A stretch of 23,682 bases of DNA from a virus. A program made the position numbers and the translations under genes. Each line of letters begins with the position of its first letter. Within the stretch, counting starts at the first letter, position 1. The notes under the pieces were generated by a model. The model did not search any database. It had not been told where the DNA came from and worked only from the letters and a program-made list of their open reading frames with translations. Location of the stretch: positions 1-23,682 of IMG/VR virus record IMGVR_UViG_3300043395_000403, one strand, 5' to 3'. Below, piece after piece: positions 2 through 8,842 of the stretch.

Positions 2-40
2 TCGGCTGAGGATACCGTTGTGGAGTTGCCTGCGGTGTAG
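2..40 (+). CDS. possible 3' end of an upstream gene (partial)
   Basis: One forward frame from the left edge reads SAEDTVVELPAV and stops at TAG 38-40. The short acidic and hydrophobic end looks like a normal protein C-terminus, and it is followed by a TTGACA box and a non-coding stretch, as expected past a gene end. Only 12 codons are visible, so chance is a real alternative. A second frame stays open to a stop at 84-86 but reads less like protein. Confidence 0.3.
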   Translation, partial: SAEDTVVELPAV

Positions 41-44
41 TGTG

Positions 45-73
45 TTGACACGCGAGAGCGGCACCGGCAGCAT
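45..73 (+). promoter_or_regulatory. possible sigma70-like promoter before the structured RNA
   Basis: A perfect TTGACA box lies at 45-50. With a 17-base spacer the -10 would be CAGCAT at 68-73, which matches TATAAT at only three positions. Transcription would begin near 80, just before the hairpin cluster at 101-181. The -35 box sits in a small palindrome, GTGT-TG-ACAC at 43-52 or so, which could also be an operator. The weak -10 keeps this a suggestion. Confidence 0.25.
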
Positions 74-100
74 TGCGGCACGGTAGATTGAAAAAAGAAA

Positions 101-190
101 GGCGTGTGGGTTCCGGGAGATCCCGGCGGTGTTTGGCAAAGCACCGATTGCGGTTCTTGTTGAGCTGCTGACCCACACGCCACTTTTTTT
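101..190 (+). ncRNA. unclassified structured RNA: three hairpins in a closing stem, ending in T7
   Basis: The closing stem P1 is perfect over 11 bp (101-111 with 171-181). Inside it are P2 (113-117 with 122-126, 4-base loop), P3 (127-134 with 139-146, 8 bp, loop GGCA) and P4 (150-156 with 162-168, 7 bp, loop TTGTT). P2 and P3 abut without a spacer, so the whole is a four-way junction. The run T184-190 follows P1 directly, as in an intrinsic terminator, and A91-96 with G97 can extend the stem against C183 and the T-run. P3 has one and P4 two G-U pairs that work only if the + strand is the RNA; on the other strand they become C-A mismatches. It resembles a cloverleaf but is not a tRNA: P1 is too long, there is no 7-base anticodon loop and no TTC T-loop. 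I cannot assign it to a family. Transcription is inferred. Confidence 0.5.
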
Positions 191-213: not shown

Positions 214-256
214 GCGCAACAGCTTGCGCTGTACGCTCTTGCGAGAATCTTCTCGC
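214..256 (+). other. two tandem perfect hairpins in the early leader
   Basis: GCGCAA at 214-219 pairs with TTGCGC at 224-229 around loop CAGC. GCGAGA at 241-246 pairs with TCTCGC at 251-256 around a 4-base loop. Neither is followed by a T-run typical of a terminator, although TTTTCTTATT lies at 264-273. They fill the leader between the structured RNA and the MazG-like gene and could be leader-RNA structure or protein-binding palindromes. The stretch 41-333 contains no supportable gene. Confidence 0.35.
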
Positions 257-291
257 TCAGTGCATTTTCTTATTGCAGAAACGCACCAAAA

Positions 292-341
292 AGTGTCACA
301 GTCTCAATCGTTGGTTTGAAACACTAAAAGACTATGACACT
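292..341 (+). promoter_or_regulatory. inverted repeat that would mask the first start codon
   Basis: Bases 292-304 and 329-341 are inverted copies matching at 12 of 13 positions (C299 faces A334). Folded as RNA, the 3' arm contains the ATG at 334-336 of the MazG-like gene, with a loop of 24 bases. The sequence ACACT at 321-325 could compete with 337-341 for the same partner (292-296), so two alternative stems are possible. As DNA the same repeat could be an operator. The gene has no clear ribosome site, which fits unusual control of its start. Function is inferred. Confidence 0.4.
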
Positions 342-645
342 AGACGAACTTCAAGCAGCAGTGCTGCAATGGTCTTACGACCGTGGGATCACTTCAAATG
401 CAACTCTTGATAGTCAGCTCCTGAAGGCTGTGAGCGAGATGGGGGAGCTGGCGGATGCGGTAGCCAAGAGCCAGTTTGATGATATGCGAGACGCCATCGG
501 CGACGTGACGGTGTGTCTCATCAACTTGGCTTACCTGAGCGGTTGGTCGCTCCGGGAGTGCCTGGAGCTGGCGTATGACGAGATCAAAGACCGCCGAGGG
601 ATTCTCCTCCCCAACGGGGTGTTTGTGAAGGAGGTCATGGAGTGA
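334..645 (+). CDS. MazG-like nucleotide pyrophosphohydrolase
   Basis: A 103-aa all-alpha protein. The MazG-type metal-binding pattern is visible: SEMGEL at about residues 34-39 supplies ExxE, and DAIGD at about 53-57 supplies the distal acidic residues, followed by the hydrophobic helix TVCLINLAYLSG. The ending with ELAYDEIKDRRG and a lysine near the C-terminus is typical of short phage MazG-like proteins. The family hydrolyses (d)NTPs to monophosphates and pyrophosphate; in phages the substrate may be a dNTP or an alarmone, which the sequence cannot decide. The ATG has no good Shine-Dalgarno site and lies in an inverted repeat. The stop overlaps the next gene's GTG, so it heads a coupled operon. 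Confidence 0.8.
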   Translation: MTLDELQAAVLQWSYDRGITSNATLDSQLLKAVSEMGELADAVAKSQFDDMRDAIGDVTVCLINLAYLSGWSLRECLELAYDEIKDRRGILLPNGVFVKEVME

Positions 646-2830: not shown

Positions 2831-3042
2831 AAGATATGTTTTTCGCCGACGGTTCTGTGGTCTCAGTGTGCGACCTGCCAGAGCAGAAGATCGTGGTCAA
2901 TGGTCGGGAGTGGCGGTTTGACTACGATAAGAGATTTGGCCCGCTGTGGCTGAAGAAAGACGGCACCGAAAGGAAATGCCAGAACCCAAGCAAAGCCGTT
3001 TGGCAGGCTTTTGAGCAGTGGCAGAAAGAAATACAGCAATGA
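2827..3042 (+). CDS. hypothetical protein, 71 aa
   Basis: I place the start at GTG 2827, which forms GTGA with the methyltransferase stop and lies 7 bases after AGGAGG; an ATG at 2809 lies upstream of that site and is less likely. The protein looks like a small beta-rich fold followed by a helix: FADGSVVSV, IVVNGREWRFDYDKRFGPLW, then the helical AVWQAFEQWQKEIQ. No family is recognised. The stop overlaps the ThyX start by ATGA. Confidence 0.65.
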   Translation: MKDMFFADGSVVSVCDLPEQKIVVNGREWRFDYDKRFGPLWLKKDGTERKCQNPSKAVWQAFEQWQKEIQQ

Positions 3043-3668
3043 ACGTCCGTATCATCTCCATCACACACCCGCTCATCGACGGCATTACAACCGCTGAAGA
3101 GCTTATCGTCCACAATGCTCGTGTTAGCAATCCAGACAACCAGCTTAACACGCTGACTGGGCCAAAGCTGCTGGCGTACTGAATTAAAAACGACCACTGG
3201 TCAGTGTTCGAGCAGGCCGACATGACGGTTGAGATCAAGACGTCTCGCGCCATTGCCGCGCAGATCCTGCGGCATCGGTCGTTCTCGTTTCAGGAGTTCA
3301 GCCAGCGGTATGCCGATGCGCCTGGTATCGAGCCCGTGGAGCTTCGCAAGCAGGCTGAGAGCAACCGGCAGAGCAGCACGGAAGTGTTGCCGTATTCTGT
3401 GGAGTCCTTTATGGCGCAGTCGCTGGCGTACTACAATGATCTCATCGAAGCTGGTGTAGCCCGCGAATGCGCTCGCATGATTCTGCCGCTGGCGACCAGT
3501 ACGACGCTATACATGAAAGGCTCAGTGCGGTCGTGGATACACTAGTTGTCAGTGCGCTGCGACCGCCACACCCAGAAGGAGCATCGGATCATCGCTGAGG
3601 AGATACGGGGGATCTTCGGGAAGTGTTTTCCGGTGACGGCAGCGGCCCTCCAGGAGGTGGCGAAATGA
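3039..3668 (+). pseudogene. thyX: flavin-dependent thymidylate synthase ThyX with two in-frame stops
   Basis: Read from ATG 3039 to TGA 3666-3668 this is a full ThyX of 209 codons. The signature RHRSFSFQEFSQR lies at codons 78-90 and HWSVFEQA at 53-60; ARMILPLATST and VRSWIH mark the C-terminal half. ThyX makes dTMP from dUMP with FAD, NADPH and methylenetetrahydrofolate. Two codons are stops: TGA at 3180-3182 (codon 48, after LLAY) and TAG at 3543-3545 (codon 169, after SWIH, where Tyr or another aromatic residue is common). There is no frameshift, and both ends still couple by ATGA to intact neighbours. Recent inactivation, sequence error or readthrough are all possible. A 113-codon piece between the stops keeps the signature but lacks both ends. 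Confidence 0.85.
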
Positions 3669-4925: not shown

Positions 4926-5117
4926 ATGAACGCAGCAACACTTAGAAGAGGATTTGAACGGAGCTGGAGCGGGAGCTGGAGCGGGAGCGGGAGCTGGAGC
5001 GGGAGCTGGAGCTGGAGCGGGAGCTGGAGCGGGAGCGGGAGCTGGAGCGGGAGCTGGAGCGGGAGCGGGAGCTGGAGCGGGAGCTGGAGCTGGAGCGGGA
5101 GCCAGAGCACAAAATGA
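4926..5117 (+). CDS. possible Ser-Trp/Ser-Gly repeat protein, 63 aa
   Basis: The frame opens with MNAATLRRGFER, an ordinary-looking basic helix, and then reads 23 Ser-Trp or Ser-Gly pairs, one Ser-Gln and STK. It is coupled by ATGA to the gene at 5114, which supports translation. Against it: no ribosome site, an ATG touching a terminator-like hairpin, and the fact that a hexamer array gives low-complexity text in any open frame. The array probably expanded inside a once ordinary small gene. No function can be named. Confidence 0.35.
   Translation: MNAATLRRGFERSWSGSWSGSGSWSGSWSWSGSWSGSGSWSGSWSGSGSWSGSWSWSGSQSTK
4962..5105 (+). repeat. hexanucleotide array, 24 units of AGCTGG/AGCGGG type
   Basis: Twenty-four consecutive 6-base units run from 4962 to 5105; 23 are AGCTGG or AGCGGG and the last is AGCCAG. 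The T/G choice is not random: the order of units (W for TGG, G for GGG) is WGWGG WGWWG WGG WGWGG WGWWG, so 13 units (78 bases) form a higher-order copy that then repeats for 10 units. The unit count is a multiple of three bases, so slippage would change length without changing frame. Each unit carries GGAG, a Shine-Dalgarno-like core, and GG every six bases, which could allow two-layer G-quadruplexes. Confidence 0.95.
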
Positions 5118-6818: not shown

Positions 6819-8842
6819 AAGAAGGTCTTCACAGGCAGGCGATTGAGCAATTCAATGCCATTCAGATTGCGTATCAAGATGAGCGGTTGCAGTGCTTGGA
6901 TGATAGACGTTTTGCGACTATTCCGGGGGCGCAATGGGAAGGCCCATTAGGTCAGCAGTTCGATAACAAGCCACGCTTTGAGATAAACAAAGTCGCAATG
7001 GCAGTTTTGCGTATCGAAAACGAATATCGCAATAACAGAATTGGAGTTGAATTTGCATCAAAGGATGGTTCTGAGTACGATTCTCTCGCTGACGTGTGTG
7101 CCGGGCTGCACCGGGCCGACGAGCAGGATTCTTGCGCTGAAGAGGCCAAGGACAACGCCTTCAGTGAAGCGGTTCACGGTGGAATGGGGGCGTGGAGGCT
7201 GCGGACTGAGTACGAGAACGAGGAGGATGAGGAGGACGAGCGGCAGAGGATTCGGTTCGAGCCGATCTTTGACGCTGATTCGAGTGTGTTCTTCGATCTG
7301 GATGCCCGGCGGCAAGACAAGTCAGATGCAAAATACTGCTTTGTGCTGACGGCAATGACGCCGGACGCCTTCAAGGCTGAGTGGAATCGGGAGCCAGTGT
7401 CTTTCAATAAGGAAATTGAGCGCACCGAGTTCGACTGGTACACGCCGGACGTCGTCTACGTGGCTGAATACTACGTCGTGGAGATGAAATCTGAGGTGAT
7501 CCGCACCTTTCAGGATCAGTTGACCGGCGAAGAAGAGGGTTTTGACGAGGCCGAGTATGAGGAGAAGAAGGATATGCTGGCAGCGACCGGCTGGAAGGAG
7601 ATCAAGCAGCGCAAGGTGAAGCGACGCAAGGTCCACAAGTACATCCTTTCGGGTAATGAGATCCTTGAGGACTGCGGGTATATCGCCGGGAAGCATATTC
7701 CGATTGTGCCGGTGTACGGCAAGCGGTGGGTCGTGGACAATGTGGAGCGGTGCATGGGGCATGTGCGGCTCGCAAAAGACGCGCAGCGGCTCAAGAACAT
7801 GCAGGTGTCGAAATTGGGCGAAATCTCGGCCTTTTCGAGCATCGAGAAGCCAATTTTCACCCCTGAACAGGTCGCTGGGCATACAACCCTCTGGGCGGAG
7901 GATAACGTCAAGAATTACCCGTATCTGCTCGTCAATCCTGTGACGGATGCGACTGGAAATTCGGTCCCGGCAGGCCCGGTCGGGTTCACGAAGTCCCCTG
8001 ACATCCCGCAGGCGATGGCTGCGCTTCTGCAACTCACCGAGGTGGACATGCAGGACATCCTTGGGAACCAGAACCAGGGTGACAAGGTGCTCTCGCACCT
8101 TTCGAGCAAGACCGTGGAGATGGTTCAGCAGCGGCTGGACATGCAGAGCTACATCTACATGTCGAACATGGCCAAGGCCGAGAAGCGGTCTGCTGAAATC
8201 TGGCTGTCGATGAGCAAGGACGTGTACGTGGAGCCAAACCGCAAGATGAAGAAGATCATGGCGAACGGCAAAACGGAGCCCGCGCAACTCAATAAGCCGG
8301 TCATGACCGAGGAAGGTGAGGTCGAGGTTGAAAATGATATGTCTGAGGCCGAGTACGACGTTGTGGTAACAATCGGGCCGACGTCGGCAACGAAGCGGCA
8401 GGCAACGGTGCGCGCTCTCACCAACATGATGCAGATCACGCAAGATCCGGAGATGCTTCAGGTGCTGTCGGCGATGACCATGATGAACATGGAAGGCGAA
8501 GGAGTCGGCGAGGTGCGCGATTACTTCCGTAAGAAACTTCTGCGGATGGGTGTTATCGAGCCGACCGAACTGGAGGCTCAGCAACTCATGCAGGAGGCCC
8601 AAAATATGCCCCCTGACCCGCAGCAGCAGTATCTGGAGGCGGCAAGCGAGCAGGCCCTTGCACAGGCCACCAAGAGCCGCACAGAGACAATCCTGACGCT
8701 GGCTAAGGCCGAGGAGACCAGAGCGAAGACGGCTGAGACTCTTTCCAAGGTCAGCAATCTCGATCAGGACCGGATCTTCGGCCTTGCTGACCGCATAGGC
8801 CAAGCGGTGCAACGCGAAAGCGCGCCCCCACCTATGCAATAA
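6815..8842 (+). CDS. portal protein, P22 gp1-like
   Basis: A 675-aa protein in the portal position between terminase and scaffold, a little shorter than P22 gp1 (725 aa). It would form the dodecameric ring at one head vertex through which DNA enters and leaves, docking TerL during packaging and gp4 afterwards. The N-terminal part has PRFEINKVAMAVLRIENEYRNNR and the SEAVHGGMGAWRLRTEY phrase typical of P22-type portals, then a very acidic loop (ENEEDEEDE at about 129-137). The C-terminal third is helical and Gln/Ala-rich, as expected for the barrel. It starts at ATG 6815 in an ATGA overlap with terL; no clear ribosome site is visible, so coupling probably drives translation. Confidence 0.93.
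   Translation: MKEGLHRQAIEQFNAIQIAYQDERLQCLDDRRFATIPGAQWEGPLGQQFDNKPRFEINKVAMAVLRIENEYRNNRIGVEFASKDGSEYDSLADVCAGLHRADEQDSCAEEAKDNAFSEAVHGGMGAWRLRTEYENEEDEEDERQRIRFEPIFDADSSVFFDLDARRQDKSDAKYCFVLTAMTPDAFKAEWNREPVSFNKEIERTEFDWYTPDVVYVAEYYVVEMKSEVIRTFQDQLTGEEEGFDEAEYEEKKDMLAATGWKEIKQRKVKRRKVHKYILSGNEILEDCGYIAGKHIPIVPVYGKRWVVDNVERCMGHVRLAKDAQRLKNMQVSKLGEISAFSSIEKPIFTPEQVAGHTTLWAEDNVKNYPYLLVNPVTDATGNSVPAGPVGFTKSPDIPQAMAALLQLTEVDMQDILGNQNQGDKVLSHLSSKTVEMVQQRLDMQSYIYMSNMAKAEKRSAEIWLSMSKDVYVEPNRKMKKIMANGKTEPAQLNKPVMTEEGEVEVENDMSEAEYDVVVTIGPTSATKRQATVRALTNMMQITQDPEMLQVLSAMTMMNMEGEGVGEVRDYFRKKLLRMGVIEPTELEAQQLMQEAQNMPPDPQQQYLEAASEQALAQATKSRTETILTLAKAEETRAKTAETLSKVSNLDQDRIFGLADRIGQAVQRESAPPPMQ

Follow-up and report, generated by a model that had tools for sequence, protein, structure and literature searches.

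The question raised by the left end of this virus record is whether a set of nested stems followed by a T run forms a functional RNA and, if so, to which gene's transcript that RNA belongs. The window, by which we mean the whole stretch of DNA analysed, is a 23,682-base virus record that encodes a P22-like podovirus and shows no end repeats. Its genes all lie on the + strand and include MazG, a DNA methyltransferase, ThyX, terminase, a P22-type portal, coat, and tail genes. The first gene 3' of the element, given here for context only, encodes a MazG-like pyrophosphohydrolase (334..645, + strand; PHROG 1992/715 and Pfam MazG). Elsewhere in the window, the thyX gene (3018-3545) is apparently split into ORFs at 3018-3182 and 3204-3545, both of which match adjoining stretches of the locus L136 (6776-6633 and 6608-6255); the split appears to be a frameshift, a sequencing error, or a real interruption.

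Fold, strand, and known RNA families

Read as RNA, positions 101-181 of the + strand fold into a closing stem, P1, around three hairpins of 5, 8, and 7 bp with only four linker bases, which confirms the arrangement of inner hairpins proposed in a sequence-only reading of this DNA. The closing stem that the same reading described as 11 perfect base pairs is present, but it is 12 bp long, with 11 Watson-Crick pairs and an innermost U-G pair between its arms at 101..112 and 170..181, the 3' arm being placed both by the RNA fold and by an alignment of the three sequences described below. P2 (113..126; 5 bp, 113-117/122-126) reads CCGGG-AGAT-CCCGG and is followed directly by P3 (127..146; 8 bp, 127-134/139-146); P4 (150..168; 7 bp, 150-156/162-168) carries the loop UUGUU, and AUU (147-149) and U169 serve as linkers. 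The T7 run at 184..190, a candidate 3' end of an intrinsic terminator judging from its sequence, does follow P1, though after a two-base spacer (AC) and not at once as had been claimed. Directly 5' of P1, a box consisting of GGTAGATTG and A6 (82..96, + strand) is similar in all three phages by flank alignment, and its A run is able to face the T run. The minimum free energy of the fold is -57.9, as compared to -31.3 +/- 3.5 for dinucleotide-preserving shuffles (z = -7.6), and none of 200 shuffles was as low.

The strand was assessed through G-U pairs, of which the window has three in P3 and P4, as the sequence-only reading had noted in arguing for a + strand RNA, and a fourth closing P1. Since these pairs have no counterpart on the opposite strand, the - strand fold is weaker by 15 kcal/mol in the window (-37.0 vs. 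-52.0 for the + strand) and by 9-15 kcal/mol across the three members, each of which has 3-5 G-U pairs at differing positions. A near-perfect inverted repeat near terminase or replication genes could also be a DNA site for packaging, replication, or recombination, extruded as a cruciform; the G-U pairs, in different places in each member, and the weaker - strand favour a + strand RNA over such a site, which we regard as very improbable.

No known RNA family accounts for the element. ARAGORN found no tRNA or tmRNA genes, and none of the 4227 models of Rfam 15 matched at the gathering threshold; on the + strand, 101-190 had no Rfam match even at E values up to 10, and the copy in the more distant of its two homologues (L134, below) had none at E up to 1. 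A BLAST search against phages and plasmids likewise gave no match. The earlier assertion that the element is neither a tRNA nor a member of a known family is thus borne out, as is its separation from the small self-cleaving ribozymes: hairpin and hammerhead ribozymes are ruled out, as internal loops are absent from every arm and Rfam gave no match. A riboswitch does not fit either, given linkers of 4, 0, and 0 nt in the three members, mostly unconserved loops, and a position behind a gene in all three. Nothing was found in support of the suggestion that the element is a host-RNA mimic or a decoy.

Homologues and covariation

A scan of IMG/VR with the P1 pattern yielded one further contig with the element (L014:1434-1510). 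This contig also bears the second-closest terminase (87%) and shares the P22-like backbone of the window, and its RNA likewise sits between a small gene and MazG. Its P1 is identical to that of the window and its linkers are zero, while ten pairs in P3 and P4 differ and are all still paired, six pairs being altered on both sides. Other sequence matches to P1, in genomes L128-L130, are chance occurrences or other inverted repeats in which the three-hairpin interior is absent, and apart from L012, which belongs to the same contig as L014, matches to the loop motif have neither the closing stem nor the fold. Two other features are common to the window and L014. A low-complexity tandem coding repeat (SWSGSG / GAGA; window 4926-5117 and L014:4077-4265) lies between a small gene and the genes preceding terminase. 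A second conserved stretch, at window positions 225-285 between the RNA and MazG, consists of a GCGAGAA...TCTCGC hairpin plus ...AGTGxATTTTCTTAT... and is retained in L014 with C-to-T changes that preserve G-U pairing; it might act as promoter, operator, or leader for the MazG operon.

The second homologue (L134:5058-5135, at position 25,058 of contig G001) came from a descriptor scan of fetched loci that uses no sequence. This phage shares MazG (92%) and a tail protein (76%) with the window and has a different structural backbone. Its P1 is largely different (GCGTCGCAGGTT/GATCTGCGACGC), and it retains all four arms and the GGTTCCGGG...CCCGG block, with an A run on the 5' side, a T run on the 3' side, and, again, zero linkers. 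The longest block that is identical across all three members, GGTTCCGGG, lies in the P2 region. The T-rich run 3' of the element falls at the same place in each of them, as T7 in L134 and as TTTCTTTT in L014, where a C interrupts the run.

The three members each fold independently into the same structure by minimum free energy. In their structural alignment (A11; window, L014, and L134, the first two with identical P1), standard pairs occupy 99% of cells and 16 of 32 pairs are changed on both sides (20 such cells), figures that are somewhat inflated because the alignment was fitted to the structure. By arm, the double-sided changes number 6 of 12 pairs in P1 (in L134), 4 in P3, and 6 of 7 in P4. 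None of 500 shuffles of A11 reached any of the covariation measures, and sliding the pairing partners by 1-3 columns left 36-45% of cells paired with 0-4 double-changed pairs. The compensatory changes that had been predicted for all four stems in relatives are therefore present in P1, P3, and P4 and not in P2, for which there is no such evidence because four of its five pairs are invariant among the three sequences; in P2 it is the sequence that is conserved. These matched base changes, which keep the shape while most of the sequence is rewritten, suggest that the RNA itself is probably functional.

The element is also rare. When both strands of 290 phage loci (2.33 Mb) were scanned with a descriptor that asks for perfect hairpins closed by a stem of 9 bp or more, no more than 8 linker bases, and a T run, only three places fitted, all of them the homologues, and an order-1 Markov resample of the same 290 loci gave four weaker matches. 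The proposed route of Infernal with Rfam followed by a custom model led, after the empty Rfam search, to a three-sequence model (R3), which recovered only the three members from ~1.55 Mb of loci plus 50 whole phage records, other matches being weak. The default filters of an earlier two-sequence model (R2) missed L134 (52.7 bits with filters off), so negatives from that model do not show that the RNA is absent. Scanning the whole of IMG/VR for the P2 block plus a T run added no member, with the proviso that members with an altered P2 outside the fetched loci escape such a scan. Homologues, covariation, and rarity in 2.33 Mb together establish the element as a real, conserved, + strand RNA family that is absent from Rfam 15 and, as had been surmised from the one sequence, undescribed.

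Position behind a small basic-protein gene

The sequence-only reading placed the element just before an early operon. The genes past the RNA are indeed all co-directional in the window and L014 and lead to terminase, but in G001/L134 they are convergent, and the terminase genes lie on the opposite strand. The constant neighbour is instead a small gene upstream, whose stop codon precedes P1 by 60 nt in the window, 30 nt in L014, and 25 nt in L134. The upstream proteins of L014 (109 aa) and L134 (127 aa) are homologous (E = 7e-7), and AlphaFold predicts one long helix for the upstream protein (pLDDT 73.8, pTM 0.31), a model too slight to support a search by fold. In the window this gene is cut by the end of the record, such that only its last 13 codons remain (2..40, + strand; SAEDTVVELPAV, stop TAG). 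It probably belongs to the same small basic-protein family, as it ends in VVELPAV-stop, resembling the family C-termini TVVLDPSAAA and SVVLEPSAAA, a likeness that is weak alone because only 12 residues are available. In all three phages the upstream gene ends in GTG TAG. MazG was rejected as the linked gene: most MazG relatives have no such RNA upstream, and in one phage (L002; MazG 92%) the RNA is ~8 kb away. Given the constant place behind the small gene and the convergent genes of L134, the context that the three phages share is the 3' end of the small gene and not the start of an operon. The convergent genes of L134, which own a simple hairpin adjoining the RNA, are as expected at a transcript end.

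These same observations bear on a leader terminator of a late or delayed-early operon, comparable to lambda pR'-tR' and its 6S RNA, that would be read through with the help of a Q-like small basic protein. The co-directional genes of the window and L014 would suit such a leader, as would a homologous small gene found upstream of terminase in 12 related contigs; yet the gene orientations in G001 do not, and PHROGs and Pfam show no likeness between the small protein and known antiterminators. We therefore hold this explanation to be improbable.

Those 12 contigs lack the RNA, and other structured repeats lie in the space behind the small gene. Structured repeats, dispersed or in tandem, occur in P22-like relatives (L034:3086-3149 and 8229-8700; L017:722-1010; L044:4273-4686; also L015, L021, L022, L023, L045, L049, L055, L070, and L073), several of them directly behind the small basic-protein gene. 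In these repeats, a 5-bp stem (ACACC/GGTGT or ACGCC/GGCGT) encloses one or two hairpins; GAC comes next, followed by a hairpin with a GAGAGA loop, the stem of which varies in sequence and keeps its pairing (4 of 5 pairs double-changed among 13 units). The repeats have no Rfam match at gathering thresholds. Just before one of them, L044:4214-4259 gave a below-threshold match to the Rfam abiF RNA (26.4 bits against a gathering threshold of 37; E = 0.016).

We consider it somewhat better than an even chance that the transcript of the small basic-protein gene ends in this element, as a structured 3' end with its own terminator, and that the element is not the leader of the downstream operon. Like an intrinsic (Rho-independent) terminator, it has a GC-rich stem, the 12-bp P1, with a U-tract within 2 nt, just behind a gene, and T-rich runs are found in L014 and L134 as well. 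Unlike such a terminator, in which the loop is usually 3-8 nt, it has an interior of 57 nt made up of three hairpins, and its shape is conserved by covariation; a terminator scan does not call it, because the loop is far outside the usual range.

It is conceivable that the element is a bidirectional intrinsic terminator and nothing else, the inner hairpins being passive filler. An A run precedes and a T run follows P1 in all three phages, and the - strand also folds well (z = -4.2). Against this, three linker-poor hairpins of near-constant size have outlasted the replacement of most of P1, and the neighbourhood also has ordinary simple terminator-like hairpins. Since a plain terminator needs no three conserved arms, termination is not the whole story, and we think such a passive role unlikely. 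The precise four-armed form and the GGUUCCGGG...CCCGG arm have persisted through the rewriting of P1, P3, and P4, so this form probably has a use beyond termination.

Under the preferred reading of a structured transcript end, RNA polymerase would transcribe the small basic-protein gene first and the element after it; the three hairpins inside would form in succession and bring the halves of P1 together, and the long GC-rich P1 beside the U-tract would halt transcription. What remains, whether the mRNA or an RNA of ~80-110 nt arising by processing or from a separate start, would carry a compact and perfect four-way junction at the 3' end, and this shape could serve 3'-end protection or protein recognition, perhaps by the protein encoded just upstream. 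Release of the element as a small RNA, or binding by that protein, is possible. A more specific version, in which the small basic protein binds the junction in which its own transcript ends, whether for autoregulation or as a ribonucleoprotein acting on host or phage transcription, we put forward only tentatively.

About equally tentative is an independent, trans-acting small RNA with its own promoter and terminator, whose loops, such as UCUUGUUGAG, would pair with phage or host messages. A TTGAC(A/G) motif precedes P1 by exactly 56 nt both in the window (TTGACA, 45..50, + strand, a possible -35 box) and in L014 (TTGACG), all three phages have a similar GGTxG-TTGA-A-run box, and the P4 loop block of the window recurs unchanged in L014 even though the underlying stem has changed. 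Nevertheless, the possible -35 box has no good -10 at 16-18 nt and no clear match in L134, and was rejected as a promoter; a promoter scan gave no suitable + strand site for the window and nothing resembling a promoter for L014. L134 has a different P4 loop (GUGU), a search of the window, L014, and L013 for 9-nt antisense matches to the CUUGUUGAG loop block found none, and with such short linkers few bases are left free for pairing.

Comparison with known systems

Several phage RNAs resemble the element in part. The lambda sib/tI retroregulator of int, one long hairpin that is cleaved by RNase III, decides the fate of the mRNA. It too combines a phage terminator with structured RNA behind a gene; in contrast to its single hairpin, a four-way junction is found here, and a control through read-through has no support here. 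The lambda 6S RNA (pR'-tR') is a terminated RNA by a small regulatory gene, ahead of the operon that leads to the late genes. The likeness is that of a terminated RNA beside a small gene; unlike 6S RNA, the element has no co-directional late operon after it in G001/L134 and no promoter was identified. The c4 antisense RNA (RF01695), OOP, and DicF are likewise short phage RNAs with their own terminators, but the element is far more compact, and neither an antisense partner nor an Rfam match was found for it.

Outside the phages, the L17 downstream element (RF01708) is a structured 3' UTR RNA behind a small basic-protein gene, with its strand assigned from G-U pairs, for which feedback through the 3' UTR was proposed by its authors (PMC2864571). 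By analogy, it may serve as a precedent for structured RNA directly behind a small basic-protein gene, while differing from the present element in sequence and structure (no Rfam match) and in belonging to a ribosomal-protein gene as opposed to a phage gene.

The element adds to uncultivated P22-like and related phages an RNA family that is supported by covariation and absent from Rfam 15. None of the families tested shares its combination of a linker-poor four-way junction closed by a terminator stem with a constant site behind one small-protein gene. If the reading given here is true, phage terminators would be able to double as folded RNA domains, and the element and its neighbouring gene would provide a small, testable protein-RNA pair.
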